Assembly (NCBI RefSeq): GCF_900113925.1
Contig: NZ_FORD01000001.1
Coordinates: 1 to 64,000, forward strand
Direction of reading: 5' to 3'
DNA: 64,000 bases
Source of the DNA: Nitrosomonas sp. Nm34
GTDB lineage: Bacteria; Pseudomonadota; Gammaproteobacteria; Burkholderiales; Nitrosomonadaceae
Shown: piece by piece, positions 28,806 through 47,230 of the stretch
Numbering within the stretch: position 1 is the stretch's first letter
Layout: every line of letters starts with the position of its first letter
Made by a program: the position numbers and the translations under genes
The notes under the pieces: model-generated
Database searches by the model: none
What the model was told of the DNA's origin: nothing
What the model saw: the letters and a program-made list of their open reading frames with translations, nothing else

Positions 28806-29270
28806 GACACACATTAGATAAGTGCTGACTGTGTGCTAATTTGCGGCTAATGATACAACTTACCAAAACTTTACACATCAAGCGATGCTTCTCTTTCCCT
28901 ATGTATCAGGATACCTTTCGCCCGTAAACAAAAATACACATTTAAACCTTAAACGTTTGGCATAAACAATCCAAAAATATTTTTATTTTCTTGCCATAAA
29001 GACCGTTTTTACGTGTTAGCACGTATATTTTTAGCTCGAAGATTTTAATAAGCTATAGCAGTATCAGAATTGAATAAATTAAGAGAGTTTATTCTCCTGT
29101 TGTTTCATGCTAAAAAGGCAAGTGGTACGTTTTTTCAGCTACTTACTGCTGAGATTGATTTCTAATTCAAAGCATCAGGAGTAAGTAACTTGTCATTAAG
29201 CGGCATGAGCAAAGCCGAATGGCCTTAATCAAGTGTCCAGTTTTGTTCAATTACAACTAATCATAAAATC
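28806..29270. other. Intergenic region holding palindrome promoter site 1
   Basis: 465 bp with no recognisable frame. It carries the palindrome-N15-GATTTT element at 29010-29046 that is described separately. The remaining sequence shows nothing else. Confidence 0.5.
29010..29046 (+). promoter_or_regulatory. Shared palindromic promoter element, site 1
   Basis: TACGTGTTAGCACGTA (29010-29025), then 15 bp, then GATTTT followed by AATAAGC. The 16-mer is identical, in gene orientation, to site 4 (47019). It is directed at the hydrolase lipoprotein gene at 29271, about 245 bp upstream of its ATG. Function as an activator or sigma-factor site is inferred from conservation and fixed spacing. Confidence 0.65.
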
Positions 29271-30602
29271 ATGATGACAAGTGCTTATTATCTGAGCAAA
29301 AAAAATAGAGGATTAATTTTCTTTCTCTCAATCACTTTTTTCTTATCGGGTTGTGTCAGTAGCATCAGCAAGGGTGTAACACAAGCTCTTCTGGAAAAAG
29401 CTGAAACTGAAGATACGCGCATCTGCATCGTTGAGGGCATGCCTTTTGAAGGGATTAAACCAAACCTCATCAACAAACAGGGAGAGACCAAAGTCGCGAT
29501 GGTGCATGGTGTAGGGGATCATATACCAGGCTATTCCACCGAATTTTTGAATAAACTAGCCAAAGAATTAAACTTAAACAGTCGTTCGGGCGATTCCAAG
29601 AATATCACTTTGGTTTCACCTTTGTATCCTGACAAAACTCTGGGTAATTTGCGCGCAACCCAACTGCTGAATGAAGCTACCGGTGAGAAGTTAACGTTTT
29701 ATGAACTCGCCTGGTCGAGGCTTTCTCTTCCAGAGAAAGCGCTGCTGAGATTTGACACTTCAGGAGAAATTGATTTTCGCAGAGCCACAATCAATCGTAA
29801 GCTAAAGGAATTCACCAATGACACCACGCCCGATCCAATTATTTATTTAGGCAGCAGCAGACAACTTATTCTGGCCGCATTTGCGCAATCATTCTGTTGG
29901 ATGGCAACACAATACTGGCAAGATCTTCCCAAGGATGGGGAACATATCTGCCGAGGCTTGGGCGATGCGCATGTCGACAAAATAGAACGCGATGACTATG
30001 TCGTGATTTCACATAGTCTCGGTAGTCGTATCACCATTGATGGTTTCCAGCGTGTTGCCGATATGCTGGAGCACCCGGAAAAGTATAGAAGTTTAGCACA
30101 AGACGAACAGACTAATTCCATGCCTGTTTCTGTAGCAACCTCCAAAGCAATAATAGCACTCCGTGAAAAACATGTCCCCGTTTTCATGCTATCCAATCAG
30201 CTTCCACTCCTGCAATTAGGCAGAGAGCTTCCGGAGGTGGTGGGGCAGAAAGCAGCCTATTGTAAACCAGAAGGTGCGCATTATACGGAGCGCATGCTCA
30301 CCGACACATCCATTATCGCTTTCAGTGATCCCAATGATTTATTAAGTTATGGCATACCCAATCAGTTCAGCGAAAAATATCTGGATTCACGATTATGCCC
30401 AAGCATCACCAATGTCACGATCAACGTGGCCAAAATTATTGATGCCTTTGATATCAAAGGCTTTGCTAATCCACTGGAAGCCCATGTAGGATACTTCATT
30501 GATGATCGGGTGGTCGCACTGATTGCCAATGGCATCGGCAATCCGCATACCTCGCCGCTTATTAAAGAGAGATGTGAATTTACCAAAATAGGCGATAAGT
30601 GA
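29271..30602 (+). CDS. Alpha/beta-hydrolase fold lipoprotein
   Basis: 443 aa. A lipobox LSGC (Cys28) follows a hydrophobic signal. HGVGDH at residues 79-84 resembles the oxyanion-hole/first-strand motif, and SHSLGSR (nucleophile Ser249) is the nucleophile elbow, so it is probably a serine hydrolase or esterase. Aspartates in SDPNDLLSYG and the late His in EAHVGYF are plausible triad partners. The substrate is unknown. It begins an apparent three-gene plus-strand run with the Rap1a-like and glycine-zipper genes (spacing 16 and 44 bp). Confidence 0.78.
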   Translation: MMTSAYYLSKKNRGLIFFLSITFFLSGCVSSISKGVTQALLEKAETEDTRICIVEGMPFEGIKPNLINKQGETKVAMVHGVGDHIPGYSTEFLNKLAKELNLNSRSGDSKNITLVSPLYPDKTLGNLRATQLLNEATGEKLTFYELAWSRLSLPEKALLRFDTSGEIDFRRATINRKLKEFTNDTTPDPIIYLGSSRQLILAAFAQSFCWMATQYWQDLPKDGEHICRGLGDAHVDKIERDDYVVISHSLGSRITIDGFQRVADMLEHPEKYRSLAQDEQTNSMPVSVATSKAIIALREKHVPVFMLSNQLPLLQLGRELPEVVGQKAAYCKPEGAHYTERMLTDTSIIAFSDPNDLLSYGIPNQFSEKYLDSRLCPSITNVTINVAKIIDAFDIKGFANPLEAHVGYFIDDRVVALIANGIGNPHTSPLIKERCEFTKIGDK

Positions 30603-30618
30603 ATGAATTATTTAACCG

Positions 30619-31026
30619 ATGAAGGAAAAAATCATGCCTCTTACCATTTGTCAAAAATGCTTCATCACAATTATTATGGCAGGTTGCCTAACAACACAAT
30701 CTCAGGCTGCTACAAAAGATAATTTTCTGGCAAGAAATGCACAGGATATCATCGAGTTATGCACAGTCTCACCAACAGATCCCCTTTACACAGAAGCCAT
30801 CCACTTCTGCCATGGCTACCTGGTGGGCGTTTATCAGTATCAGCAAGATTTTTACAGTAGCCCTGAACTCAGCCCTCTGGTTTGTCCCCCGAACCCTAAG
30901 CCGTCACGCAACCAAACCATAGCAAATTATGTCGGATGGATGAAAGCTCATCCAGAATATCTGAAGGAGCGAGCCGTTGATACCGTAATGAAATATTTGA
31001 TAGAAAAATTTCCATGTAAAGAATAA
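30619..31026 (+). CDS. Rap1a/Tai-like exported protein
   Basis: 135 aa, or 130 from the internal ATG. A signal peptide ends near SQAATKDN. The body has the Rap1a/Tai pattern: ELCTVS, FCHGYLVGVYQYQQ, LVCPP, YVGWMKAHPEYLKERAVDTV and a final KFPCKE. Four cysteines are available for disulfides. Named members are periplasmic immunity proteins against type VI amidase effectors (Serratia Rap1a), but many homologues stand alone. No type VI gene is visible here, so an immunity role is only a possibility. Confidence 0.72.
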   Translation: MKEKIMPLTICQKCFITIIMAGCLTTQSQAATKDNFLARNAQDIIELCTVSPTDPLYTEAIHFCHGYLVGVYQYQQDFYSSPELSPLVCPPNPKPSRNQTIANYVGWMKAHPEYLKERAVDTVMKYLIEKFPCKE

Positions 31027-31070
31027 CGGTTACTGCTCATTTCATTCAATACTTTTTAGGAGCCAATAGT

Positions 31071-31346
31071 ATGAGAAAAATTCTGTGTTTAGTCATTGCA
31101 GTAGTCGTGGCAATGGGTATAGTGGGATGTGCAGGCATGACTCAGTCAGAACAGAGAATGATGACCGGAACGGCAGGAGGCGCAGCAACCGGCGCTGTAA
31201 TTGGCGCAATAGCAGGTAATGCAGGGATGGGCGCTGCCATTGGCGCAGGCGCGGGCTTGTTAGGGGGTTACGTTTATGATAAGCACAAACAGTCTGAGGA
31301 ACGTGCTTACCAAAAAGGCTATCAGGAAGGGCAGCAAAGGAGATAG
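31071..31346 (+). CDS. Glycine-zipper outer-membrane lipoprotein
   Basis: 91 aa. The lipobox is GIVGC (Cys20). The glycine zipper is at residues about 34-66 (GTAGGAATGAVIGAIAGNAG), and the end is the charged DKHKQSEERAYQKGYQEGQ. It resembles OsmB/YmgG-type lipoproteins. AGGAG lies 10 bp before the ATG. It converges on the minus-strand gene ending at 31352. Confidence 0.82.
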   Translation: MRKILCLVIAVVVAMGIVGCAGMTQSEQRMMTGTAGGAATGAVIGAIAGNAGMGAAIGAGAGLLGGYVYDKHKQSEERAYQKGYQEGQQRR

Positions 31347-31351
31347 TGTTT

Positions 31352-31978
31352 CTAGTATGTCCCTTCGCTGACCATGACGAGCCGGTCATCCCGGACGACA
31401 AAGTGCTTTATGACCGTGAGCGTTGGGCAGCACATCGCGTCTTGTGAGCGATGCATCGTCATCACAACTGTAATGTGATCACGCTCAATCGCTAACGAAT
31501 GCACCTTCACCCGATCGCCCAGAAAAACAGTGTCAGTATTCGTCCAACCTTGAATATTTTCAACATCTTCAATTAACAGTGCAAGTTCGTAGAACGTACC
31601 CGTTCCGCCCAAAGTAGTGATCACCACGACTACGCCCACCGTTTTGCCGTTCAGCACACCGAATGCCCGCTTATCGGCAAGTTTCACCACTACTTCAGAC
31701 ACGGAATCTGGAGCAGCTGAGGCACGAAATTCGTCCTGAGTAAGGATCACAGGTCCAATCTGATATACCTTAGATTTGAAGATAATCGATTTGAGATTTA
31801 CAGCAGACACATCGACCTGTTTAGCTTCAAAGCGGTCAAGTATATTTTCATCCTTGATTTGATGGCACTCCATATCCTCTAGGCCAGTTGATAGATAAGA
31901 TGCTTGACCTTGAAGTACGATGGATAATATCGCAACCCAGATTAAAGTAGATTTTGGAATTTTTTTAGGGAGTAGCAT
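31352..31978 (-). CDS. Exported protein of unknown function
   Basis: 208 aa. An N-terminal hydrophobic segment (about 11-27) looks like a signal peptide. The remainder is rich in short beta-strands (VGPVILTQDEF-like, KTVGVVVVITTLGGTGTFYELALLIEDVENIQG, DRVKVHSLAIERDHITVVM). Two adjacent cysteines occur in MCCPTLTV. No family is recognised. It converges on the glycine-zipper lipoprotein with a 5-bp gap. Confidence 0.65.
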   Translation of the reverse strand: MLLPKKIPKSTLIWVAILSIVLQGQASYLSTGLEDMECHQIKDENILDRFEAKQVDVSAVNLKSIIFKSKVYQIGPVILTQDEFRASAAPDSVSEVVVKLADKRAFGVLNGKTVGVVVVITTLGGTGTFYELALLIEDVENIQGWTNTDTVFLGDRVKVHSLAIERDHITVVMTMHRSQDAMCCPTLTVIKHFVVRDDRLVMVSEGTY

Positions 31979-32122
31979 GAAACCTCCTCAATCGTTATTT
32001 TATACTCCCGAATCCGTTGAATGCCGTCGGGTTATACGGCAGTCCAGATAAAAAAAGTACACAAAGAAATGCGCCTTACCCTGGTCTGCGGCAGCTCTTA
32101 CCTACCGTTCCGCCAGCTTATC

Positions 32123-32872
32123 TCACTTGTTTTTCTCTTGGATCAAACTGTCAAGAAAATGATTCAGACGACTATATTCCGATGACGTTTTTTTAGTCAG
32201 CAAGTCTACTAACATACCACCGAATGCAGCTCGAGCAGCGTCTTTGATAAACATGGGCTCCAGGCTCGCCGTTTCGCCTACCACGACAGATTCGGCTGCG
32301 GAGGACCATACAGGTTCACCGCTGATGGTGTCCCATAGTTGCAGGGAAAGTCTCATGACAGCAGAACGGGTCTGCAAAATCACGAATGGAGTAACCGGCG
32401 CATCCAAACGGTCCGTCATAGTTTGTGAAATGTATGCCAATCTGGGCTGAAGTACGTACCGTGCTTCTATACTCTTCCCGACTTTTTGAAGTAATTCCCG
32501 ATTCAGGATATGACTTTGATCAACGCCTTGGCGCAAGCGGGTATACTCTTCTGTCAGGCCGTGACGGTTAATCAGGGCGATTGTTTGCTGTGCATCCATT
32601 ATCTTCCAAGTGGGAACGATTTTTTTAATGGATTCCGCAAGATATAGGCTCAATACGGCTTCATCACCCCGAGAGGATGTCGACGCTAAGGGTGTGAACA
32701 GCGCCACCACTTCCCCTTCCAAGCCTGTTGGATTCGAGGAGGAAGAAAATAGCGTCGATGTGGTGCGTACTAACCATCTAGGCTGGACGCTTCCACACCC
32801 TGCCATAAAAAGGATGAGAAAGATCAGCCCTGCTACCCTAATCTTTGTCTGGAAACTAAAGATGTGAACCAT
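32123..32872 (-). CDS. Lipoprotein of unknown function
   Basis: 249 aa from the ATG at 32872; a longer frame starts at 32920 but its extra residues are hydrophilic. The lipobox is LFMAGC (Cys26). The body has the Curli/GNA1162-like pattern of lipoproteins that assemble in the outer membrane (ESIKKIVPTWKIMDAQQTIALINRHGL, VLQPRLAYIS, SLQLWDTISGEPVWSSAAES, FIKDAARAAFGGMLVDLL). This pattern is only suggestive. It stands alone, with about 130 bp upstream and downstream. Confidence 0.68.
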   Translation of the reverse strand: MVHIFSFQTKIRVAGLIFLILFMAGCGSVQPRWLVRTTSTLFSSSSNPTGLEGEVVALFTPLASTSSRGDEAVLSLYLAESIKKIVPTWKIMDAQQTIALINRHGLTEEYTRLRQGVDQSHILNRELLQKVGKSIEARYVLQPRLAYISQTMTDRLDAPVTPFVILQTRSAVMRLSLQLWDTISGEPVWSSAAESVVVGETASLEPMFIKDAARAAFGGMLVDLLTKKTSSEYSRLNHFLDSLIQEKNK

Positions 32873-33050
32873 ATCATCAATGCCTACGCCGCGGATGGAT
32901 GCTGATCGCTGTAGATCCATAATGAACTTTATTCATCCCTTATCTTAAATAGACCAAGTCTGAAAAAGATTAATTCTGCACTTATCCAGTTTGCCCAACA
33001 GTCCATTCAGATTGTGGCACCGCTTCGCTCATAAAATTTAGCTAAATTCA

Positions 33051-33509
33051 TTAGCTCGGTTGACCTTGACCTATTTTTTCTTTACGAGCAAAGTAAAAAT
33101 AGGCGCCCACCACAAAGAAATTAGTGATCACCGCGATGATATTCCATAGGATCACGGGTCTTGAAAGGATCAACAACCCGTAGTAAACCCATAAAATTTG
33201 GAAAGTACCCATAATGGCAGCCATCCTCGGATTCATGCCTTTACTTGACCTTCGTTTAAGCATCCCGATCAAATCCGGCAAAGCGGCAAAAGTTGTTCCT
33301 AATCCTGCTAGAAAACCGACAACTTCTGATCTGTAAAAACCAGGGAATAACAAGCTATCCACATCACGTATGGCAAATTCTCCGCAGCCAGTAAGCATGA
33401 GCACGCTGAAAAAGAAACAAAGCAAATGGCCTCTCTTAGGAGAAGCCCTATCCACCTCTGCTTTAGAGGGTACTGAAGCTTGCCACAAACCCGATTTATG
33501 CTTTTCCAT
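33051..33509 (-). CDS. SemiSWEET-like sugar transporter domain behind a lipobox leader
   Basis: 152 aa. Residues 61-145 form a single three-helix SemiSWEET unit (VVGFLAGLGTTFAALPDLIG, then RRSSKGMN, then FQILWVYYGLLI and IIAVITNFFVVGAYF). The usual PQ is PD here (PDLIG). SemiSWEETs are normally about 85-95 aa and dimerise. This one has 60 extra N-terminal residues that end in a hydrophobic stretch and LTGC (Cys42), a lipobox. The start is firm: GGAGG lies 6 bases before the ATG. The N-terminus predicts processing as a lipoprotein, unusual for this family. It is adjacent to the GH13/GH63 operon (36 bp), which suggests a shared sugar. Confidence 0.75.
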   Translation of the reverse strand: MEKHKSGLWQASVPSKAEVDRASPKRGHLLCFFFSVLMLTGCGEFAIRDVDSLLFPGFYRSEVVGFLAGLGTTFAALPDLIGMLKRRSSKGMNPRMAAIMGTFQILWVYYGLLILSRPVILWNIIAVITNFFVVGAYFYFARKEKIGQGQPS

Positions 33510-33545
33510 TCATTCCTCCGTCGTTATATCCGCTGTCTCCCGAAT

Positions 33546-35029
33546 TCAGCTCGACCAATTACGCTCACAGTGGAAAAGGTGATAACCCCATGGTTCTAAT
33601 TCTACGTACAAACCTGATACTTGAAGTTCATCACCCGACCGATCAAATACCCTTGTCTGCAACGGATCGCTCAACTGCCAGGGATGTCCGACGAGATCCG
33701 TCCACGGCAATCTCACCCTCGCTTTAGAATGGCTTGCTGAGAGATTAACGATAATCAGGTGGCGATCAGTATTTTTTTGCCAGCACCAGGCGACCACATT
33801 CAGGTAGCTATCATTGTCCGGCCAGCCGATTCGTTCGCACAGTCTCCATTCCCCCTCCTGAAAGTCTTGGCTGCGGAGGACTTCAAGAAGGGTGTAGTAA
33901 AACTTCTGAAAATTCTGGTCCACGGTTTCATCGGGGCGGCGGCGCAGGAACACGGGCAGTCTTACACGGCGTCCCTCGAATTGTCCTTCGTGAAACAGCC
34001 TCGCACCAGGCAATGTCGCAAACGTTATTGCAGCAGCCCGTGCTTGCTGATCAGTAAACGTCGCAGCAGCGCGCGGTTCGTCGTGGTTCTCAATAAAACG
34101 AACGAGCTTTTCCTGATAGGGCAGATCGGCGCAGAGATGCAGGTAAACGCTCTCGGCAGTATCATGCTCAAGGCGATCATAAAGACGCTTGTCGTAGCAA
34201 TAGTTGAAACCTTGCTGCTGCAGTGCCCATTCCCTATCCCAATAAGCCTCGGCAATAAACAGGAACTGTGGATGCTTCTTTTTCACAGCTGGAATCACTT
34301 GCAGCCAATAATCAACTTCTGGAACTCGACCCGCGCGATCACCCCATGTTCGGTGGAAAATGGTATTCATCAGCAACATGGCCATGTCGCAGCGCACACC
34401 ATCGCACTGGTCCGCAATATCATTTAATGTTGCGATGACAACATCGCGCAGGCCAGCGTTGAACGCATTCAGTTGAAGCACATCTTCCCAGGCGGGAAAG
34501 TAAGGGTCACGCCCACAAGCATACACACGGCTGTTGACGGACACAAATGAGTGAGGATCATGTATCAGATCTTCCTGAGTTCCCTGAATGAAGTATTCCG
34601 GGTGCTCAAGGGCCCATAAGTGATCATGAGCAACGTGGTTCGGCACAAAGTCAAGAATCAAACGTACCCCTCGCTCAGCGAGTTTGCTTCTGGCAATCGC
34701 TAATCCTTCCGTTCCTCCCAGGTGTTGATCCACCATATAGCGACGCACGCAATAAGGTGAGCCCACATTGTCCTCCGGCAAAAAATCAGGGAGGGCCAGG
34801 CGAAAATCTGCAAGCAGACCTTCGTTGCGCATCGATATGGCAATGCTAGCAGGGCTCCGTTCCCACACGCCCATCAACCAGACCGCATCGAATCCGAATG
34901 AAGCAATCTGATCCCACTCGCTATCAGGGACTGACGCTAGTGTATACTGTCGTGCCGACTTACGGGCCAACTCACCTAGCCACACCCAGGTGTTGATTTC
35001 ATAGATCAGCGGGTACTTCGGCCAGGCAT

Positions 35030-35033
<4 letters not shown>
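33546..35033 (-). CDS. GH13 alpha-amylase family glycosidase
   Basis: 495 aa, with no signal peptide, so cytoplasmic. All four GH13 conserved regions are present: DFVPNHVAHDH (region I), GVRCDMAML (region II with nucleophile Asp), FIAEAYWDREW (region III with acid/base Glu) and FIENHDEPRA (region IV). A C-terminal beta domain follows (NVVAWCWQKNTDRHLIIVNLSASHSKARVRLP). Specificity is not clear; alpha-amylase, trehalose- or glucosylglycerol-acting enzymes are all possible. Its ATG overlaps the GH63 stop codon by 4 bp. Confidence 0.87.
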
Positions 35034-37789
<2,756 letters not shown>

Positions 37790-37862
37790 CTGATTCTCCG
37801 CTTTATCAAGCTATACCGATAACTTAGCCAAGTTACTCAAGCAACCAGTATTGCCTATGCTA

Positions 37863-38924
37863 TTATTCCAACTTCGGAGAAAACTTACATTGCTGGCAGC
37901 CTGCCTTTGTCGGAACAGATACCGCCTTCTTCCAATAGGGCAGCAAGCGATAGGTAGCATAATCTTTTTTTGCGACGAGCCATGTACTCAGATCACGATT
38001 GATTAGGCTGGAAAGAAGCTGAATGTCAGCTTGCAGCGTCTCGCGCACAATAGCAGTCATCCTAGGAGACAGCGGCACCGGCGATGCCTGAATCGTATTC
38101 CAAGTAACCAATCGGCTGATCCGGCTGCGACGCTTTGAACCATCCTGATTGTAATGGGATAGACGACGCTGCAGGGTATCGATTACTTTTCCACGGCGCA
38201 TCACTGGCAGATAAAGTAACTGCTGCAGCCAGCGATACCGATACATACGGCTCTGGTATTTTCGCTCAAAGCGGGTCTGTCCGTCGTAATCGACGTGAAG
38301 GAACTCGAGGGCACGCTGATAGACACCCAGCGGGTCGGCCGCGAGATCATCGAAAACGATCACATGCGTTCGTTCGCGTCCTGTGATGGCGTAGAGTTGC
38401 TGAATTTGTGCACCAAATTTTGCGATCTCACTGTATGCCAGTAACCGGGTATCAAGACATCGCTTCGGGATATTCTCCCCTCGCGCTCGCGCCGGCTGAA
38501 GCGCCCACGCTTTCTCAAAATCCGGTTCGTCCTCTTGCAGCAGATATCGCAAACGCTGATGATACGATGGTAGCATGGTAAGCGGATCGCGCACTAAAAC
38601 GATAAACCGTGCATTAGGGTTAAATTGTTGAATTCGTTTGATAGCGTCGGGCTGATAGAGGTATGTCACGGTACCCTCACCTACGGCGCGACAATCAGCA
38701 GTAAAATGAGCGAAATAGCGGTCTAGATAATCCCGCCGCAATTCATTCTCGGATAAATCATGATCAAGCTGACTAAAGAAATAGGTCTCTTTGGGTTGCG
38801 AAAAGCATATCTGCGAGTTTCGTGCGAGGTATCGACAGAAAGATGTTGTACCGCAACGCGGTGCACCTATGACGAAGAAATCAGGAAAGCGTGAAAGTTG
38901 AGTCACCTGCTGATTATTTTTCAT
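37863..38924 (-). CDS. PAPS-dependent sulfotransferase
   Basis: 353 aa from ATG 38924 (AAAGG upstream); a GTG two codons earlier is also possible. The 5'-phosphosulfate loop is IGAPRCGTTSFCRYLARN (about residues 21-38), followed by KETYFFS. The 3'-phosphate site is FIVLVRDPLTMLPSYHQRL. The remainder is a typical sulfotransferase domain with a His-rich core. It transfers sulfate from PAPS to a carbohydrate or other small molecule; the acceptor is unknown. It is first in the operon with GH63 and GH13, directly downstream of palindrome site 2, which hints at a sulfated sugar. Confidence 0.85.
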   Translation of the reverse strand: MKNNQQVTQLSRFPDFFVIGAPRCGTTSFCRYLARNSQICFSQPKETYFFSQLDHDLSENELRRDYLDRYFAHFTADCRAVGEGTVTYLYQPDAIKRIQQFNPNARFIVLVRDPLTMLPSYHQRLRYLLQEDEPDFEKAWALQPARARGENIPKRCLDTRLLAYSEIAKFGAQIQQLYAITGRERTHVIVFDDLAADPLGVYQRALEFLHVDYDGQTRFERKYQSRMYRYRWLQQLLYLPVMRRGKVIDTLQRRLSHYNQDGSKRRSRISRLVTWNTIQASPVPLSPRMTAIVRETLQADIQLLSSLINRDLSTWLVAKKDYATYRLLPYWKKAVSVPTKAGCQQCKFSPKLE

Positions 38925-39285
38925 AACCACACCTTTCTACTAAATTTATTGGAATATGATATGGGAATAGGTTATTCAAATATGCTGGTTAAGAAAATAC
39001 GTATAAATACGTAGAAGTATTCTATAGGAAGAATCAACAAACTTATTCTGATTCAAATCACATACTTCAGTTTTTTAATGAAAACAGCATTATCTATCCC
39101 ATCTCACTGATAATCCTAAATTTTCTATAGGTATACTTCTTTGCATCTAACATCCATGCAGTATTACCAGCGCTGGGTTCAAATATGTTTTCGATGCGCT
39201 TAATACTGAAGTACCCAGCCTTAGCAGACAGCTGCAGCGCAAGGCTTTTAAAGAAGTTTCAGATAAATCATGACTCCCTAATGTC
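38925..39285. other. Intergenic region upstream of the sulfotransferase operon
   Basis: About 360 bp holding palindrome promoter site 2 (38977-39013). The rest is AT-rich with no frame I can support. It also contains the end of the minus-strand channel gene transcript. Confidence 0.45.
38977..39013 (-). promoter_or_regulatory. Shared palindromic promoter element, site 2
   Basis: TACGTATTTATACGTA in gene orientation (38998-39013), then 15 bp, then TATTTG followed by AATAAC at 38982-38977. It is directed at the sulfotransferase-GH63-GH13 operon, 52 bp from the -10-like element to the ATG. The most compact of the four sites. Confidence 0.65.
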
Positions 39286-40221
39286 TCAATAAATATTTCC
39301 ACCGAAACGATATTGCCAGTTAATTCCAGCTGCGTTGAAATCACTACCCGTACGAACTGAGACGCCTGTATTGAAGAAAAGTTTGACCGAGTTATGCCGA
39401 CTCACAGGCAAAGAAAGCGTTACACCTGCCCGTGAGTTTTCTAGCTTGCTGCCACTTTTCACTCCGTCCACAATAGTCTGTCCGCCGGCGAAAAAAGTAC
39501 CATCCACCGCAAACCAGATACCATTGCCAAAACTGTAGATAATGTGCCCCTGCAGAGAATAAACAGGATCCTGCTCGCGCACTCTGCTACCAAGAAAATC
39601 ATTGTTTGCAGTATAAAATTGGATACTTCCGGCAAGCTCCAATATGAAAGGTCCCAAACTCTTTGAAATGCCAATCTCCGGCCTGATCGACCAGCGGTTA
39701 TTGCCGATATTGAGCAGCTTATCTTCATTGTACTGCCCGCTGGGTGCGGTCACTTCTACGCTCGCACCAATAACCGTATCTTGCCGATAATTTACAAAAT
39801 CTTTCATAGAAAGTGCAGGCGCGCCAAAGAAATTGACTGCAAAGCGGAATCTTGTGTCGGCAGGCCCAAATATTTCCCGATCGCGAGATTGGTCCGTAAC
39901 TGTGGCACTGCCTGATGCCCAAGAGAGCGGCTGCACTACATCGAATTTTGCTGATTTACCAAAGAAATCCAAGGAGCGAGCATAAGCAAAAAACGTTGAA
40001 TGGATTTCAACCTTGGTATTCTCAATCGGCAGGGCTGGATCGGTACCTACCCCGCCTCCGATAAAGTTATAACCAGTAACCAGAAAATTTAGTCCTACTG
40101 GCGCATTAGTATAAGTGCGCGGCTCGATGACCTGCCCGTTAGCACTTAGAGCAACCAATGCAAGCACCATTGCCGCAAAACGAGTTAACCTCAGACTTTC
40201 AAACCTATAAAGCCTACTCAT
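39286..40221 (-). CDS. Outer-membrane channel, MetA-pathway phenol-degradation type (transporter)
   Basis: 311 aa from ATG 40221; a TTG start 16 codons earlier is possible but adds only a basic leader. A signal peptide ends ALSANGQV. The remainder is a repetitive beta-barrel with the family's hallmark sequences: LNFLVTGYNFIGGGVG, FAYARSLDFFGKSAKFDVVQPL, VTAPSGQYNEDKLLNIGNNRW, GISKSLGPFILELAGSIQFYT and a C-terminal NWQYRFGGNIY. It is probably an outer-membrane channel; the substrate is unknown. There is no obvious operon partner. Confidence 0.8.
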   Translation of the reverse strand: MSRLYRFESLRLTRFAAMVLALVALSANGQVIEPRTYTNAPVGLNFLVTGYNFIGGGVGTDPALPIENTKVEIHSTFFAYARSLDFFGKSAKFDVVQPLSWASGSATVTDQSRDREIFGPADTRFRFAVNFFGAPALSMKDFVNYRQDTVIGASVEVTAPSGQYNEDKLLNIGNNRWSIRPEIGISKSLGPFILELAGSIQFYTANNDFLGSRVREQDPVYSLQGHIIYSFGNGIWFAVDGTFFAGGQTIVDGVKSGSKLENSRAGVTLSLPVSRHNSVKLFFNTGVSVRTGSDFNAAGINWQYRFGGNIY

Positions 40222-40399
40222 CCGAGTCTGTACCAATAGATTGAAAACAGCGCGACCAGATGGCTTCAAGACAATGGATTAAGCTAGTTTTTAAGTTAAT
40301 TACCCCAAAGAACGGGGCATTACCTCGTCCTAATATAAATTTGATCTTCCAATATACTTAATCTATTTAATGAAAGTAGCAGCCTCTTCCACCAACTAC

Positions 40400-41182
40400 T
40401 TAATAAGGCGCTGCTACAGGCACATACGAAACGCCATTTCCCCCGTAAGCCTGAGTGTACCAGGTAGAACCACATTGGTGGTAGGTCACCCCTTGCACCA
40501 CAGTTGTGTAGGGAGAACAGGGCAGGCTAGCATAACCCGATGATGGAGGCGCACTGTAGACGACGGTAGAGGATGGCGTCGCTGTTGATTGACCCGCTGC
40601 ATACCCGACTACTCCGCCCACTACTGCAGCACCAATCGCCAACGCTGCAACTTCACCGTCATCCCAGTCGTCATCATCATGGTAGTGCCCGTGTTCATCA
40701 TAATAGTGCCCCGCATAACTCTCCCTGGTGTCTGCTCTGGCTTGAGTTCGTTCCGTCCGTTCCCCTGCTCGCTCAGTCCGTTCTCCCGCCCGCGCGGTTT
40801 GTTGCTGCTGGCGAATATCGGTACGTTCCGTATAACCTGCCTGGCGTCCTTCCCGGGTCTCTGCCCGGCCCGTCGCCCTTGTCTGCGCAGCTTGCGATCG
40901 GCTGGCTGTTCTCGATGCAGAAGCTGCTGGAGCGCCCGATCTTGCTGCTGCTCCTCGGGATGAGCTGTACGAAAAGCTGCCGCTTGCGGCAGCACCACTA
41001 CGGGAAAAACCAGCACCGGTTGCCCTCGCACCACCACCGCCCGCTCTTGCGCCGCTGGCAGATGCTCTTCCACCTCCCCCACCTCCCCCGCCTACACGCG
41101 CGGCAGTCTCATGCACGGTGCCAATCAAAAAAATGAATGCGATCGTGATAATGGTAATGAACAAGTAAGGTTTGGTGTTCAT
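40400..41182 (-). CDS. Low-complexity exported protein (Arg/Ala/Gly- and Asp-rich)
   Basis: 260 aa. A membrane segment (about 7-24) is followed by Gly/Ala/Arg-rich low-complexity sequence including tandem AGERTER heptads (about 131-144). Then comes an acidic/His segment (HYHDDDDWDDGEVAALAIGA), a short glycine zipper and a Tyr/Pro/Ser-rich tail with YTTVVQGVTYHQCGSTWYTQAYG. The last part resembles the domain of YXWXQ-type small exported proteins. Function is unknown. It overlaps the DUF2092 gene by 4 bp (ATGA) and is therefore translationally coupled. Confidence 0.72.
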   Translation of the reverse strand: MNTKPYLFITIITIAFIFLIGTVHETAARVGGGGGGGGRASASGARAGGGGARATGAGFSRSGAAASGSFSYSSSRGAAARSGAPAASASRTASRSQAAQTRATGRAETREGRQAGYTERTDIRQQQQTARAGERTERAGERTERTQARADTRESYAGHYYDEHGHYHDDDDWDDGEVAALAIGAAVVGGVVGYAAGQSTATPSSTVVYSAPPSSGYASLPCSPYTTVVQGVTYHQCGSTWYTQAYGGNGVSYVPVAAPY

Positions 41183-42045
41183 TTCTGTTCTCCTGTTTCT
41201 GCCGGGCTGGCTGACCCTTGAAGCACAGTTTTAGGCAATTGCGCGACAAAGGCAATCTTCCGCGCCTCCTTAGGTGGGGTAAATGTAAAGAGGGTATTTT
41301 TGACTTTAGGGTCCAGATTCCAGTTGGAGAATTTCGCCCGGTAATCTGGTTGGCCTTCTACATTCTTGTAAGTCAACACGATCTGAAGCGGCAACGGTTT
41401 AGCTCCTTCGGCAATCCATACTTGATAATCGACCGTTTCCGTGCGCCCTGCCACATGATGAACGGGTTTCCCATCCATAACCGTCTCTTCTACATAATCG
41501 AGTGTTTGAGTGCGGCGATCGAGCTCTTCCGGAAGCCGGCTTGTAACGAGCAGGGCGAGCGGCAATGTCATGCCGAGATCTCTAAGGAAATACATAACTG
41601 CTTCATCAATGCCGCCGAGTTTGGTTGCCTGGGCATAAACGTTCTCAGACGGAGTAAACACAGTGATTTGCCTGCCGTCGTACAGAACAAGATGTCTCTC
41701 GCCATCACTATGCTCCGCTTCTATGTGCAACCCATTAGGGCGGTTCACAATGACTTTACGGTTCTCGCCAAATTCAATCTTTTGACCGGATTCTTGTAGC
41801 ACTTCATAACTCGATTTGATGTTAACGCTGTATTTCTGCGCCTTTGCCAGAAATTCGGCCATGCGGGTAAGCGCATCCTTGGCTGTTGCTTGCTCCTTGG
41901 CTATTTGTAAGCCTATTGATGAATTTTTTGAAAGTTCTGATTCCTCCTGTGCTTGCTTCTGTGCCCAAGCCACTGGCGTAGTCAGGATTATCAAATACAA
42001 CAATGATAATGCTGCCCCTATTCTCATTTGTCTTTTGCTCTTCAC
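41179..42045 (-). CDS. DUF2092 exported protein
   Basis: 288 aa. A signal peptide ends TPVAWAQ. The body matches the DUF2092 family: RMAEFLAKAQKYSVNIKSSYEVLQ, then LHIEAEHSDGERHLVLYDGRQITVF and VDYQVWIAEGAKPLPLQIVLTYKN. These are LolA/LolB-like beta-folds of unknown function, often co-encoded with the low-complexity protein immediately downstream (context seen here). It follows the SYLF gene after 36 bp. Confidence 0.85.
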   Translation of the reverse strand: MKSKRQMRIGAALSLLYLIILTTPVAWAQKQAQEESELSKNSSIGLQIAKEQATAKDALTRMAEFLAKAQKYSVNIKSSYEVLQESGQKIEFGENRKVIVNRPNGLHIEAEHSDGERHLVLYDGRQITVFTPSENVYAQATKLGGIDEAVMYFLRDLGMTLPLALLVTSRLPEELDRRTQTLDYVEETVMDGKPVHHVAGRTETVDYQVWIAEGAKPLPLQIVLTYKNVEGQPDYRAKFSNWNLDPKVKNTLFTFTPPKEARKIAFVAQLPKTVLQGSASPAETGEQK

Positions 42046-42081
42046 AGGCTATCTCCTTTAACTATATAGGTTGCACTCCCC

Positions 42082-42651
42082 TCATGGTGTAATCCTGGTA
42101 ATTTTTGACCCCTGCAAACCCAAGCCGGCCATTAAACCTTGCTGCCCATAGATGAATGCATAGACATCATCCTTGAGTGTCGTACTCGTTAATGTTCTGG
42201 CCATCCCAGCATCTACAACGACGACACTCGGACCTACCCCGACTTCAAATCCCGAGCTCTTTTCGAGATAATTAAGTGCCGCATCATTCATGAAAAACAT
42301 TGCATAACTAAACGTCTGTGCTCCTGCTTGCAAACCGTATGAGGCAGCTACAATGTTATAGTAACCAGTTGTCCTTCTCCCCTGACGCATAGCACCTTTT
42401 CCATATTGCCCCCCCGCGATAAATCCTGCTTTAATAATATGCGGAAATATCAGAATACCTTTCGCACGTGCTGCCAGATCTCTTGCCTCAGGCGTCGTTT
42501 GAAAAAGCTGTGCTAAAGCAATATCGACTTCACGATCAATTTCAGCTGCAGCCGATGAATTAGCTTCCTTACCGCCAGTAGATTCACAACCTACTAACAT
42601 CGATACTGAAACTGTAATCAAAATCAAGTAGATGATTAAGTTGGCTCTCAT
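42082..42651 (-). CDS. SYLF-domain (YSC84-like) lipoprotein
   Basis: 189 aa. The lipobox is LVGC (Cys22). The SYLF/YSC84 domain fills the rest: ARDLAARAKGILIFPHIIKAGFIAGGQYGKGAM, FNDAALNYLEKSSGFEVG, GPSVVVVDAGMAR and YAFIYGQQGLMAGLGLQGSKITRI. SYLF domains bind lipids or membranes. It lies in the operon with DUF2092 and the small protein upstream. Confidence 0.85.
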   Translation of the reverse strand: MRANLIIYLILITVSVSMLVGCESTGGKEANSSAAAEIDREVDIALAQLFQTTPEARDLAARAKGILIFPHIIKAGFIAGGQYGKGAMRQGRRTTGYYNIVAASYGLQAGAQTFSYAMFFMNDAALNYLEKSSGFEVGVGPSVVVVDAGMARTLTSTTLKDDVYAFIYGQQGLMAGLGLQGSKITRITP

Positions 42652-42694
42652 ATTGGCTCTCCTATCGAGTTTGATTTGGTTTTCATACTGATCC

Positions 42695-42904
42695 CTATAA
42701 TTTAGCCACTCTGCGCTTAAGTTTTTCCACTTCAGCTACAACCTTGCAATCAAGATCAAATCCATGAGTGCAGGCACGCTTTGCTTCGAAGTAAAACGCA
42801 GCATTGCTAATCATCGCTTCACGAATCTCAAAGCTGGAGTTATCTCGCAGTCCAATACCGGTATCGTTTGGGTGTTTAACGACGTTTTTTTCCTGTTTAG
42901 CCAT
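42695..42904 (-). CDS. Small conserved cytoplasmic protein
   Basis: 69 aa. The frame is open further up, but the ATG at 42904 has GGAGGA six bases before it and gives MAKQEKNVVKHPNDTGIG. Motifs are EIREAMISNAAFYFEAKRACTHGFDLDCKVVAEVEKLKRRV, with two Cys. No family name. It is the first gene after palindrome site 3, upstream of the SYLF/DUF2092 operon. Confidence 0.62.
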   Translation of the reverse strand: MAKQEKNVVKHPNDTGIGLRDNSSFEIREAMISNAAFYFEAKRACTHGFDLDCKVVAEVEKLKRRVAKL

Positions 42905-43080
42905 GTTTTTGTCCTCCATTATCAAAGATGAGGAACACGAAGCGAACAAGTCAAATACACATACTAAACGTTATCGTTACTAACTAGTAAGTCTGTATTC
43001 CTAATCACATCTATAAAAGACTTTGATCTATAGAAAACCAAAAACGCTTTTTATTACGAGGTATATTTCAGCAGATTACC

Positions 43081-43117
43081 GAAATACCATCATTAAAAGA
43101 ATACGTATAAACACGTA
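43081..43117 (-). promoter_or_regulatory. Shared palindromic promoter element, site 3
   Basis: TACGTGTTTATACGTA in gene orientation (43102-43117), then 15 bp, then TATTTC at 43086-43081. It is directed at the small-protein/SYLF/DUF2092 operon, about 180 bp upstream of the first ATG. Confidence 0.62.
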
Positions 43118-43274
43118 GGAAGTTTTATTGATAAATAATCAAAAAAGACTTTTTGGATTTAAGCCATGCATTGCAATACTTCAAGAAACTGATTACATTT
43201 CTGCCTTCAGTCGCAGAATACATTCAGCTAGCAGCAATGTATTTTTAGAAAGAGAGTAAATCTGCAAAGTTATT

Positions 43275-43371
43275 CCATTTCTAAATTAAAACCGGCTTTG
43301 TCGACTTCACCTTGCCATATTTATTTATACTGTCTGCGGCTCGCCTTCGTGTCCTGTTTAATTTGGAAATG
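43275..43371. repeat. MITE-like inverted-repeat element, copy B
   Basis: CCATTTCTAAATTAAAA at the left and TTTAATTTGGAAATG at the right, with the same core as copy A (CGGCTTTGTCGACTTCACCTT, TGTCTGCGGCTCGCCTTCGTGTC). Several substitutions separate it from copy A, so the two are old or independently inserted members of one family. Confidence 0.65.
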
Positions 43372-43490
43372 CAATTAACTGCTACCGATGCAGATTATCT
43401 GTTAATAGACTGGTTTTACGTCTGTGTTGTGGTAACAAATAGCCATCTATAGCCTTAATCAATTCTTATGGCATGCATTGATATTCAAAC

Positions 43491-44288
43491 TTATTCCATA
43501 CTTTTTCTTAGGTCTACCAGTACCCGATCCACGGAATCGACCCGGATCAGTCCTAAGCGAGGGTATTCGATATCGAGGATCACATAGACTGTGATCGCGA
43601 TGATTGCGGCGAATACCACCATATGGGTTAAGCTATGCTTTGCGATGCCTGCTGTGGTATAGCCAGCCAATCCCGCGCTGATTAAAGCCAAACTAAATAG
43701 CATTACATAGATGATTGTCGGGGGGTGCATCTCTAACGCCACAGTAGTACGTTGCGTAGCGATATCGAACATTTCATTCAACGCCGTTAACAACAGATTG
43801 GTCGTTGGCACCGAGCTTGTTACTTCGCAGGCTTTTACAGCTGCAGACCAGATTTCGCCTTGCAGCGCATTCGCGCGAACCAAAGCTACTTCCGTGGCCT
43901 TCAGATCGGGTAATTTTTGATAAATCTCCAGGCGGGCATCCAGGTATTGCCGGAACAAAGCGCGCAGTGCCGGCTGCATCTCGACTGCCAACAGATCCAG
44001 GCGGAGATAAGCTGTCCCGATGGCATTTGCCTCAGTGATCACCATCTCTTTCCGGTCATCAAATCGTGAAATGGCTCCGGAAAAGGTAAAAGCAATGAGT
44101 AATCCTAACAGTCCAAAGATGGCACCATCGAGTAGCCCCGCGGAAGTGTGTTCACTCTCCGTTGCCAGAAGCCATCGAACACCTATATATCGACCAATCC
44201 CAAAAACAAGCAGCAGGCCAATGAATAACCCTAGTGCAGAGAAACCGGAAACATGAGCAATGTCAGTAGCAAAGTGAACGAAATTCAT
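43491..44288 (-). CDS. Bestrophin-like/DUF4239 membrane protein
   Basis: 265 aa. Two helices at the N-terminus (about 15-35 and 52-72) and two at the C-terminus (about 190-212 and 217-238) flank a soluble helical region. Characteristic phrases are ARFDDRK-like SRFDDRKEMVITEANAIGTAYLRLDLL and SRVDSVDR-like RVDSVDRVLVDLR. This matches the bestrophin-like DUF4239 family, possibly an anion channel. It lies alone between intergenic regions. Confidence 0.75.
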   Translation of the reverse strand: MNFVHFATDIAHVSGFSALGLFIGLLLVFGIGRYIGVRWLLATESEHTSAGLLDGAIFGLLGLLIAFTFSGAISRFDDRKEMVITEANAIGTAYLRLDLLAVEMQPALRALFRQYLDARLEIYQKLPDLKATEVALVRANALQGEIWSAAVKACEVTSSVPTTNLLLTALNEMFDIATQRTTVALEMHPPTIIYVMLFSLALISAGLAGYTTAGIAKHSLTHMVVFAAIIAITVYVILDIEYPRLGLIRVDSVDRVLVDLRKSME

Positions 44289-44489
44289 CTCTCAATGTAC
44301 CCGACATAATATAATCTTCCATTTCCATTCCCGTAAGGCAAGATTTTTCGCATACTATTCCCCAGCGGTTGCTACAACAGCAAAGTTCAGTGAATTACAG
44401 TGTTTAGTTTAGTCATATAAGATAATTCCCATAAGCTAAAGCATATCATGCTACGTCGTTGTAGATCATATGGTTGTCAGATAACTTTC

Positions 44490-45281
44490 TCAGGATTTTG
44501 GCTTGTCAACCAGTACTTTCGCAATTTTCCTCTGTTTGTTATAAAGGAGTGTAGCTGAAACCTTCATCTGCTCAATAGATGCAATCATGCCGACATCTGC
44601 CGCAAAAAATCTATATTGAGTATCATTAAGCGAAGCAGGACCTACTTTTCCATTGAAAGTCCATTTAATCAAAACGGCATCGAAACTGCCTGCCGGTACT
44701 GTGACTTTATAGGCGCCGAGGTAGCGGTAGCCGATATCCAGTATACCCGTATGAATTTGTTTGTCCGGGTTGCTCAATTCAAAAACCTTCATTTCAGTTT
44801 GTATCTTGCGCTGCTCGCCCGGAGCGAGCCCTTTCAGCATAAAAGGTTTGGGAGGCGAATACTGTATAAAAACATTTTCCTCGTTATCGGTAACCCCAGT
44901 AACAACGTAATTTCCATCCTTCTTTCCAAGAATATAATAGATGAATCTAGCTCCTGTATCATATCGCCAGGCAGTCTTATTGGCGTCCTGTTTCAGCAAG
45001 GCAGGCCGATGGTGCTCGATGTTATCTGTATCCGGCCCGCTCACGAGCCGGTAATTTCGATTGCCAGCGCTCAGATTCAGATACCGGTTAGTATCAACCA
45101 GTGCCGGTGCAGGAATAGCTTGCCCGACAACTTCCTTTCCCAGATATTTCTCAATCGCAAGACGATCCTGCTCTTCCAAAGGAAGAATGCGCGAGCCATT
45201 CTCTGCCGACTGAGCGAAACTTCCTAGAAGCACAAGAATCATAAATACAAACAGAGAAGACCACTGTATCAGTGTTTTCAT
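44490..45281 (-). CDS. Exported protein of unknown function
   Basis: 263 aa from ATG 45281, which has AGGAG 8 bases upstream; the longer frame start at 45368 has no such site. A signal peptide ends GSFAQSAEN. The body is beta-rich (LPLEEQDRLAIEKYLGKEVVGQ, VTVPAGSFDAVLIKWTFNGKVGP, MKVSATLLYNKQRKIAKVLVD). The VPAGSFDAV segment recalls DUF3108-type lipoprotein-carrier-like folds, but this is weak. Confidence 0.65.
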   Translation of the reverse strand: MKTLIQWSSLFVFMILVLLGSFAQSAENGSRILPLEEQDRLAIEKYLGKEVVGQAIPAPALVDTNRYLNLSAGNRNYRLVSGPDTDNIEHHRPALLKQDANKTAWRYDTGARFIYYILGKKDGNYVVTGVTDNEENVFIQYSPPKPFMLKGLAPGEQRKIQTEMKVFELSNPDKQIHTGILDIGYRYLGAYKVTVPAGSFDAVLIKWTFNGKVGPASLNDTQYRFFAADVGMIASIEQMKVSATLLYNKQRKIAKVLVDKPKS

Positions 45282-45401
45282 TGGTTTAACTCCTGGTTGA
45301 TAGGCCAAAAATTCTTGGTGATGAATTCGATTATCCTTTATCCTCCACTGATTACAATTCACAAACACTTCTTTTTTACGGTTTCGTCAAACCAATTGAA
45401 G

Positions 45402-45695
45402 CTAGGTAGGGGGTGATGATTTTTCCTCATTGAGGAGTGCCCGCTCAGTAATCTCTTTATAAAGATGCACCGCCTGTGCGTATACTTCTTGATATTCCGC
45501 ATGCCGCTCAACGAGAGGTTTAATCTCTTCAGCTCGCTCAGTCAAAGTTAGTTGGAGAAAGTCGATATCCCTCTGCGACAATTGCTCTCCGCGGTCAACC
45601 CTTTCCTTGATTTCAAGGGCTCTTGGTAGTGTCTGCGTGGTAAATCTCTCCAAAAGCGCCATCGCGACGCCAAGGTCTTTCTCATTCTCGCTCAT
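45402..45695 (-). CDS. Small helical protein of unknown function
   Basis: 97 aa with no signal peptide. It is helical and charged (LERFTTQTLPRALEIKERVDRGEQLSQRD, LQLTLTERAEEIKPLVERH). AGGAGGA lies upstream of the ATG at 45695. It follows the 341-aa gene after a 190-bp gap that includes an imperfect hairpin. Confidence 0.6.
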   Translation of the reverse strand: MSENEKDLGVAMALLERFTTQTLPRALEIKERVDRGEQLSQRDIDFLQLTLTERAEEIKPLVERHAEYQEVYAQAVHLYKEITERALLNEEKSSPPT

Positions 45696-45885
45696 GTTCT
45701 CCTCCTGATAATGGATTTAAAAAAATCACTCTGGTAGTCCTAGCGGGAACAACTGTTGTGCCCGAATCATATGAGACTTTGCTCCAACCAATGCTTCAGC
45801 CAAAGGTACGACATTCTTGCGTTTTTACAGTAAAAATACGCACACTGATATGGGCAGCAATCGGAGTATGCAACCAAAGTCACCC

Positions 45886-46911
45886 TTACAGGTAGCGCTT
45901 CGCTTCTTGCCAGATATTCGCTGGCTCGGGTATATCCGTTCGTGCAATATGTCCCAACAGGACGATTCTTCGTTCCGCCGTCCCTGAAAAAATCTCTGTT
46001 AAAACAATTTCCTTGCATGATGCCGTTGATGAATCTTGAATCTTGATTCCCATGGAATCAAGGTGTAACCGGATCTCACGAGATGCCAGCCATGCTGCAG
46101 GATAGCTCAAAATATCGATAACGCTTGCCAGACTCTCTTCCAAACCAAGATGATCGGTATGGAATTGTCCAAGCTCCCGCTCAATTGCCTCAATTTCCGC
46201 TTCCAAGGTGGCTAAATCAGGATGCTGCTGTTCGTGATCGGCCGACATCAGATCGAGTCCCCAATTTCCTGCTTTCATGGTATTAAGTTTTTGTTTCAAG
46301 AGATGCCATTGATGATCCAATTCCCTCCGTTTGCTCCGCTCGCACGCGATACGCTCCAGTGCCTTTTCGATGAGGAAATCGAAGGCGCGTTTCTTAAGCT
46401 CTCGGCGGGTATCCATCTCATTGCTGGTAGGCCCAAGATAACGATGATGGGAAAAATTAACGGTCACTTGCAGCACATCACGGCGCAAGCTGTCACCCAC
46501 AAGTTCCATCCCGAATCCCTTGCGTTCCTCCATATCCATACTTAGCAGTCCAAAAATCTGCTCAGGAAGAGGTTCAGTCAAATTTGCCAGGTAGTTGCGC
46601 AGAGTCTTGAAACTTCCTAAAACTTCGCGCAGATGATCAGTCGAAACAAAGAATGTACGGAGTAGCGGATCAAGACCAAATGCCCGCGAACTGATTTCTA
46701 CTGGCGCAGGCAAGGCATCAACAAGAGCAATCACATGAGCAACAGCGAATTCAACGGGCTGATGAAGCCGTTTTCGATACTGTCCAATGGCACGGATACG
46801 CTGATCCGTACCTTCTACCGCGCGATCAATGGCTTGCTCAATCAAGTCTTCAGGCAAACCTTTCTGTTGCTCGGACGTGCCTGTGAAAAGCGAACTCAGA
46901 AAACGCAACAT
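45886..46911 (-). CDS. Coiled-coil protein of unknown function
   Basis: 341 aa, cytoplasmic (no signal or membrane segments). Helix-rich: an N-terminal region with EDLIEQAIDRAVEGTDQRIRA, a central stretch of basic heptads (about 195-215, ALERIACERSKRRELDHQWHLLKQKLN) and a second coiled-coil (about 235-262, LATLEAEIEAIERELGQFHTDH). The C-terminal ~70 residues (IRLHLDSMGIKI, IVLTEIFSGTAERRIVLLGHIAR) look like a small beta domain. I recognise no family. It is directly downstream of palindrome site 4 in the divergent gap. Confidence 0.65.
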   Translation of the reverse strand: MLRFLSSLFTGTSEQQKGLPEDLIEQAIDRAVEGTDQRIRAIGQYRKRLHQPVEFAVAHVIALVDALPAPVEISSRAFGLDPLLRTFFVSTDHLREVLGSFKTLRNYLANLTEPLPEQIFGLLSMDMEERKGFGMELVGDSLRRDVLQVTVNFSHHRYLGPTSNEMDTRRELKKRAFDFLIEKALERIACERSKRRELDHQWHLLKQKLNTMKAGNWGLDLMSADHEQQHPDLATLEAEIEAIERELGQFHTDHLGLEESLASVIDILSYPAAWLASREIRLHLDSMGIKIQDSSTASCKEIVLTEIFSGTAERRIVLLGHIARTDIPEPANIWQEAKRYL

Positions 46912-47230
46912 ATGCCGCCTAATTTATAAAGTTGCCGCTATTAATAGGAAGATTAAATGCTCATTTTTAACCAATCATGTTTTAGAAATAGCTTATTAGA
47001 ATACGCAAATTAAAAAAATACGTGCTAACACGTAAGAATAAACCCGTTCCTTCGTCAGGCCGAATATTTCACCAGGCAGGCAGCGGCAAGATACCTGAAT
47101 ATGACTGTCTCACATAAGGATAGATCGTTCTTATAGTTAATTAGATTGCTTTAGCTAAGCAATCTATATAGGATTATCTGGTGTCGTGGAAAATGGACCC
47201 TTATGCGAAAATTTCTAGGAGACTGCGATC
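46912..47230. other. Divergent intergenic region with palindrome site 4
   Basis: About 320 bp between the coiled-coil gene and the DUF3313 gene. It holds the palindrome at 47019-47034, with its T-rich spacer on the minus-strand side. No reading frame was recognised. A plus-strand start is supported by AGGAGA near 47218. Confidence 0.5.
46998..47034 (-). promoter_or_regulatory. Shared palindromic promoter element, site 4
   Basis: TACGTGTTAGCACGTA in gene orientation (47019-47034), then TTTTTTTAATTTGCG (15 bp), then TATTCT followed by AATAAGC. The same AATAAGC tail occurs at site 1. It is directed at the coiled-coil gene, about 87 bp from the -10-like element to its ATG. Confidence 0.65.

Follow-up and report, generated by a model that had tools for sequence, protein, structure and literature searches.

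A predicted FixJ-type operator palindrome at promoters of Nitrosomonas sp. Nm34 and related Nitrosomonas genomes

We analyzed a 64,000-nucleotide stretch of Nitrosomonas sp. Nm34 (positions 1 to 64,000 of contig NZ_FORD01000001.1, assembly GCF_900113925.1; hereafter the window), in which an initial annotation had pointed out a 16-bp palindrome in front of four operons. The palindrome, TACGTRNNNNYACGTA, is very probably the operator of a FixJ-type response regulator that is predicted to be paired with a FixL-like PAS histidine kinase. Its four copies do lie at 29010-29025 (site 1, forward strand, TACGTGTTAGCACGTA), 38998-39013 (site 2, reverse strand, TACGTATTTATACGTA), 43102-43117 (site 3, reverse strand, TACGTGTTTATACGTA) and 47019-47034 (site 4, reverse strand, TACGTGTTAGCACGTA), with the sequences that had been given for them, sites 1 and 4 sharing the same 16 bp when read in gene orientation. 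What we computed comprises the sites, their fixed promoter geometry, their conservation at some orthologous operons, their co-distribution with one FixJ clade, and their position beside fixLJ.

In the mechanism that we propose, the FixL-like PAS kinase would sense a signal, probably the redox, oxygen or energy state, and would phosphorylate FixJ. A phospho-FixJ dimer, for which the predicted target sequence is TACGTGTTTGCACGTA, would then occupy the palindrome at about -51 to -36 and contact a poor -35 element, and housekeeping RNA polymerase would be recruited to the TAatcT -10 element across a 17-bp spacer, in a manner resembling class II activation. Up to ~30 promoters, including the four in the window, may in this way turn on stress, carbon-reserve and envelope genes jointly.

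The Nm34 genome (3.80 Mb in 149 contigs; G000 in our genome set) contains 30 exact sites and none for the reversed-pattern control, and a slightly narrower pattern gives 29 forward matches. When one mismatch was allowed in this genome, 41 places were found against 38 for the control; since this is no excess, the motif appears to be strict, with nearly all true sites exact. Within the window, five places, each matching on both strands, give 10 matches at up to three mismatches, compared with a mean of 2.78 and a maximum of 7 in shuffled sequence. The regulon proposed in the initial annotation is supported by this genome-wide set, which has envelope and stress genes behind its sites and whose matches are not strewn randomly through genes: one of the 30 Nm34 sites lies within an open reading frame (ORF) of at least 100 amino acids (aa), as do 0 of 23 in G011, 2 of 23 in G066 and 1 of 16 in G097, whereas 82% of random window positions do so.

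We searched 85 genomes of the genus, taken as Nitrosomonas from the closest fixJ matches that carry a name, with TACGTRNNNNYACGTANNNWNT, counting strand hits, so that some palindromes are counted twice. The six genomes with 17-31 strand hits (G000, G011, G066, G077, G097 and G078) are exactly the six in which FixJ shares 84-100% identity with the Nm34 protein; FixJ identities of 100, 99, 95, 90, 85 and 84% go with 28, 31, 29, 17, 23 and 21 strand hits, respectively. G082, with a FixJ that is 73% identical, has 6 strand hits. The other 78 genomes have 0-3 strand hits, and in them FixJ is no more than 67% identical, is partial, or gave no match at E 1e-45 (for G098, which has a count of 3, the positions are not among the matches listed). 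Among the matches listed for these motif-poor genomes, 7 of 26 distinct palindromes lie within 3 kb of fixJ (in G006, G041, G062, G071, G080, G085 and G088), against an expectation of ~0.05 computed for 25 sites, a contrast to which no literal probability attaches because several of the sites look like one inheritance.

The candidate regulator is encoded outside the window at C89:64749-65369 and the kinase at C89:65366-66865, fixL overlapping fixJ in the seven neighbourhoods that were read. The regulator has Pfam Response_reg and GerE matches, that is, a receiver joined to a LuxR-type helix-turn-helix (HTH), and its matches to PDB sequences (StyR, 1.1e-48; FixJ, 1.2e-45) place it in the FixJ family, while the kinase part of the FixL-like protein is best matched by FixL chimera structures. 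A site is found near fixLJ in all six motif-rich genomes, at ~1.6 kb before fixJ in G097 and G078, and the FixJ-type gene directly adjoins sites in G000, G011 and G066 and also in G006 and G041. The exact palindrome stands within 300 bp before fixL in G000, G011, G066, G077, G006, G041, G080, G071, G085 and G088, and a version with one changed base stands there in G019, G046, G059, L127 (4377), L128 (4362) and L129 (4384). A more degenerate palindrome is possibly present before fixL in G010, G018 and L126 (by eye; G018 and L126 are the same in sequence), and none was recognized there in L130 or L131, the loci read being those with enough sequence upstream of fixL. In a set of 80 fixJ loci the exact palindrome was found 0 times, the one-mismatch search there covering L126-L132. 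G062 (L281) has the operator ~230 bp upstream of fixJ, with no FixL recognized beside FixJ within 5 kb.

The half-sites of the palindrome read TACGTR, in line with the TAMGTA core of published FixJ sites, which include GTAMGTAG, the 16-bp TAAGTAATTTCCCTTA (PMC4999443) and, at Rhodopseudomonas palustris fixK, GTACGTAG (PMC13327599). In the sister species with one-base operator changes before fixL, the changed left half reads TCCGTG or TTCGTG. Such changes suggest that FixJ specificity has drifted within the genus. FixLJ self-control is plausible. In the fixLJ intergenic regions (e.g., L280 near 5231 and L127 near 4393), a AGGGTTAACCCTTATA-like sequence also occurs by the operator on the fixL side, where it may act as the promoter of the divergent fixL or as a further site.

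It is improbable, as we judge it, that some other transcription factor of the clade (LuxR-type, CRP/FNR-type or from an unsurveyed family) binds the palindrome and that fixLJ is merely one of its targets. The palindrome adjoins fixLJ just as it adjoins other targets, and two CRP-like genes (L002 and L022) themselves stand behind sites; CRP/FNR proteins, moreover, typically use 16-bp two-fold operators near -41. A CRP-like protein was tried as the controller and set aside: G011 has 23 sites, yet no resemblance to the CRP-like targets was seen in any of its four HTH_Crp_2 matches. Further evidence against another factor is that, where a genome has just one to three sites, the one adjoining fixLJ recurs, that the half-site matches the published FixJ core, and that the FixJ of 73% identity goes with an intermediate site count.

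The promoter geometry was read from 109 distinct sites in six genomes (30 from G000, 23 from G011, 23 from G066, 16 from G097, 6 from G082 and 11 from G077, the last drawn from the fetched parts of that genome only). The symmetry of the operator called for a scan of both sides of each site (218 in all), with no orientation assumed. TAnnnT occurs 23 bp past the palindrome (N23) on 95 of the 218 sides, whereas the remaining offsets between 3 and 59 give 0-19, on average ~5. Once the sites are oriented by score, 92 of the 109 have it at N23 and 4 more at N22, and the extended -10 base, G at -14, is present in 65. The first six bases past the palindrome, often TTTTTT or TTTAAT, lie exactly 17 bp ahead of this -10, so that the operator (-51 to -36) abuts a weak -35. 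The layout is thus that of a class II-like sigma-70 promoter, in which the operator abuts or overlaps the -35 and a standard -10 follows at a fixed spacing of 17 bp between hexamers. The palindrome would be centred near -43.5 if transcription starts 7 bp past the -10. An alternative reading, in which the -10 is GATAAT at N21 and the palindrome centre falls at -41.5, was dropped, since the most constant bases are the T at N23, the A at N24 and the T at N28.

This geometry alters one element of the initial annotation, which had placed the -10 at a KATTYK motif. The palindromes of sites 1-4 are indeed followed by 15 bp and then by GATTTT, TATTTG, TATTTC and TATTCT, with AATAA next at three of the four, yet KATTYK at N15 is found on just 15 of the 218 sides, against 95 for TAnnnT at N23. 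KATTYK is part of the T-rich stretch upstream of the real -10, which lies 8 bp further downstream. The initial annotation had also left the choice between an activator site and an alternative sigma site by the -35: the constant distance is the mark of an activator-type site, and the -35 and -10 are separated by the customary 17 bp, which makes an alternative sigma factor unnecessary. That the palindrome is itself the -35-like element of a dedicated alternative sigma factor, as its very strict sequence and fixed spacing could suggest, is very unlikely. The palindrome has two-fold symmetry, and downstream of it stands a distinct -35/17/-10 set of standard appearance (TAnnnT at N23). When one half-site plus the promoter was fixed, the 85 genomes gave 58 matches in the six motif-rich genomes, one in G082 and one in G090, and the exact second half was present in 32 of the 37 such matches in G000, G011, G066 and G097, for which palindromes are fully listed.

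Several observations weigh against a FixJ operator. Binding and phosphorylation are inferred and not computed, as are the mode of action (activation, not repression), the form of the polymerase and the signal, and the survey of controllers took in the LuxR-type and Crp-type HTH families of seven genomes. The six motif-rich genomes are probably one clade, and the co-distribution consequently represents few independent events. Many other Nitrosomonas have a FixJ without the motif, so that FixJ specificity or the regulon must have changed, and just one recognition-helix difference is visible (SFRTVE versus SHRTVE/SYRTVE, in eight proteins). At fixLJ, the palindrome-based promoter faces a divergent CBS or PAS operon and not fixL. 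In the motif-poor genomes, reversed-control counts (up to 3) are as large as the site counts, and single sites there mean little except by their position beside fixLJ; in G097, the control gives 2 matches against 16 sites. TAnnnT at N22-23 is missing from 13 of the 109 sites, and 6 of the 30 Nm34 sites lack it at N23, two of these having the N22 version. The promoter scores of L019 and L021 are below 0, and L019 stands before an Hsp20 gene that is counted as a target. Finally, the aligned haem-ligand position of the kinase is Tyr in G000, G077, G078, G097 and G011, and His in G066.

This last position, the proximal PAS histidine of FixL haem sensors (which we take to be H200 in BjFixL and H77 in DosP), is therefore not kept in five of the six motif-rich genomes, and for most of the lineage oxygen sensing of the FixL kind is unsupported. 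The match of the first PAS domain (PAS1) to the haem domains of DosP and FixL is weak in G000 and stronger in G066, and the position is Tyr or His in the motif-poor genomes. The FixL at L117:10367-11866 is the locus at which the PAS1 Tyr of these five genomes was noted. The target content suggests low-oxygen or energy stress as the condition to which the system responds.

Among the first or early operon genes behind Nm34 sites are those for a transketolase, a phosphoketolase, a PAS protein before a carbohydrate phosphorylase, an alpha-amylase/CBM48 enzyme, two Hsp20 proteins, DUF2934 proteins, a CBS protein before a ribosome-hibernation-type protein (CBS-HPF), and a cold-shock protein with its near copy. 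Two CRP-like proteins (L002 and L022), an HlyD-type protein, and FecR, DUF533 and peptidoglycan-binding domains are also represented, as are the four window operons, and 11 of the 30 target proteins scanned have no Pfam family. Four genomes have in common the PAS-Hsp20/DUF2934 group, the phosphoketolase, the CBS operon and one small-protein group, and CRP-like genes stand behind sites in G066 as well as in Nm34. As for the window operons, the palindrome promoter also precedes orthologues of the site-4 gene in G066, G097 and G077, the site of the sulfotransferase operon (site 2) is kept in G066 and G077, and in G077 all four window sites are kept in unchanged order.

The promoters fall largely into two sub-types by a typing rule that we set from the same data: type A, with a T-tract and AATCAGCATATTTCGATAATCTATT (61 of 109 sites, including all four in the window), and type B (TTTAATTGCCTTCTATTTTTCGATAAATT; 43 of 109), five sites being given neither type. 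The sub-type mostly agrees among orthologous genes (phosphoketolase is A in four genomes and the CBS operon B in four) and is mixed in the ATP-grasp group and one other group. A second inverted repeat adjoining the operator, AGGGTTAACCCT, was set aside as a binding site, being present in just 5 of 120 scanned sites, all of type B. Between +1 and +25, the likeness among type A copies is 0.40 against an expected 0.30 in G000 and 0.47 against 0.29 in G066, hardly raised in G011 (0.29 against 0.27) and not raised in G097 (0.33 against 0.33); in the 25 bp upstream of the palindrome it is 0.48 against 0.27 in G066, 0.34 against 0.26 in G011 and 0.38 against 0.30 in G097. Likeness equals expectation from 70 bp upstream and from +60, and type B copies have none downstream of the start in G000, G011, G066 or G097.

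Copying of type A promoters as a cassette is therefore possible and partly supported. Promoter identity from -35 to -1 (0.72 for 9 orthologous pairs, 0.55 within G000 and 0.74 within G066) does not discriminate copying from constraint. It is extremely unlikely that the palindrome is a dispersed repeat or mobile element that carries a promoter by chance, without a common regulator, a judgement made without a search for transposon ends or transposase genes. Such an element could explain why type A likeness extends past the promoter in two of four genomes (G000 and G066), and upstream too in G066, but this likeness fades further out and is weak or absent outside the promoter in G011 and G097, type B copies share the operator and promoter only, and sites are kept at several orthologous genes.

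NarL/LuxR-type activators use 7-2-7 operators, and the present two-fold operator of ~16 bp beside the -35 region is similar to theirs, although its heptamer, TACGTRY, is unlike that of NarL. The motif of DosR differs from the palindrome. The proposed system resembles FixLJ of Sinorhizobium, Bradyrhizobium and Rhodopseudomonas in combining a FixJ-family receiver and LuxR-type HTH with an adjacent PAS kinase, and in its TAMGTA core half-site within a 16-bp imperfect palindrome (PMC4999443, PMC13327599); it departs from them in its haem-ligand position, which is not kept in five of the six genomes. For FixJ, fixK is described as the only known conserved direct target, and candidate sites are given for four genes in the Rhizobiales (PMC4999443). 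The 16-30 exact sites per genome found here are thus an unusual extent for a FixJ, for which few direct targets are described. FixLJ of the Burkholderia cepacia complex, which is betaproteobacterial and induced by low oxygen, acts on a fixK gene (PMC5234846), and CRP-like genes behind sites in G000 and G066 are a likeness to it; there, however, fixK is the reported direct reporter target, whereas here many operons bear the site, and the available parts of PMC5234846 contain no operator description. There is also a partial likeness to the lxa (low-oxygen-activated) locus of B. cenocepacia (PMC6127331) and to the DosR dormancy regulon, in the stress proteins, carbohydrate enzymes and CRP-type regulator. 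A nitroreductase gene adjoins fixJ in Nm34 and recalls the lxa cargo, although it is at most a candidate target. Unlike in lxa, where universal stress proteins are prominent (PMC6127331), that family is absent among the 30 target proteins scanned here.

We would advance only tentatively, as a rather doubtful joint reading, that a local FixJ circuit grew into a regulon of 16-30 direct sites in one Nitrosomonas lineage, while sister species kept little more than the site in its own neighbourhood, that this took place partly by copying a ~75-bp type A promoter cassette, and that the kinase gave up haem oxygen sensing for another signal. Ammonia oxidizers must withstand oxygen swings, and gene switching in them is, in our judgement, poorly known; the present findings supply a regulator candidate together with an exact operator, a map of the promoters and a list of targets, and tie envelope and DUF genes of no known role to a stress programme. 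Near relatives that share the regulator with or without scattered sites also constitute a natural experiment in the growth of a two-component regulon. Among the matches listed for literature on Nitrosomonas with FixJ, nothing on this regulon was found, as judged by the listing.

Within the window, the predicted operator at site 1 directs its promoter to the right, with a putative -35 hexamer TATTTT at 29026..29031 (from the promoter alignment) and a putative -10 TAAGCT at 29049..29054, 23 bp past the palindrome. The presumed three-gene operon behind it (29271..31346, forward strand) encodes a protein without a Pfam family that the initial annotation called a lipoprotein (29271-30602), a Rap1a-like protein (30619-31026) and a glycine-zipper protein (31071-31346). 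The predicted operators at sites 2-4 direct their promoters to the left, and the features behind them are on the reverse strand. Site 2 has a putative -10 TAACCT (38969..38974) and a presumed three-gene operon (33546..38930) for a sulfotransferase (37863-38930), a GH63-type enzyme (35030-37789) and an alpha-amylase-type enzyme (33546-35033). Site 3 has a putative -10 TAATCT (43073..43078) and a presumed four-gene operon (40400..42949) for a small protein (ORF 42695-42949), a Ysc84/SYLF protein (42082-42651), a DUF2092 protein (41179-42045) and a protein without assignment (40400-41182). Behind site 4, with a putative -10 TAAGCT (46990..46995), the first gene (45886..46911) encodes a 341-aa protein without a Pfam family.

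Some minor observations were made on individual loci. The exact Nm34 palindromes at L021:3001 and L019:3001 have no promoter layout and are possibly chance occurrences or put to another use. The cold-shock genes L001 and L003, on separate contigs, have nearly identical operator promoters. L125 (G000:C35) holds one more CRP-like paralogue, the third, which shares 85% identity with the protein of L002 and has a one-mismatch palindrome near its gene at C35:16430. In the window, an Rfam scan gave one tRNA, and another LuxR-type HTH match was found by family at 55223-55387.

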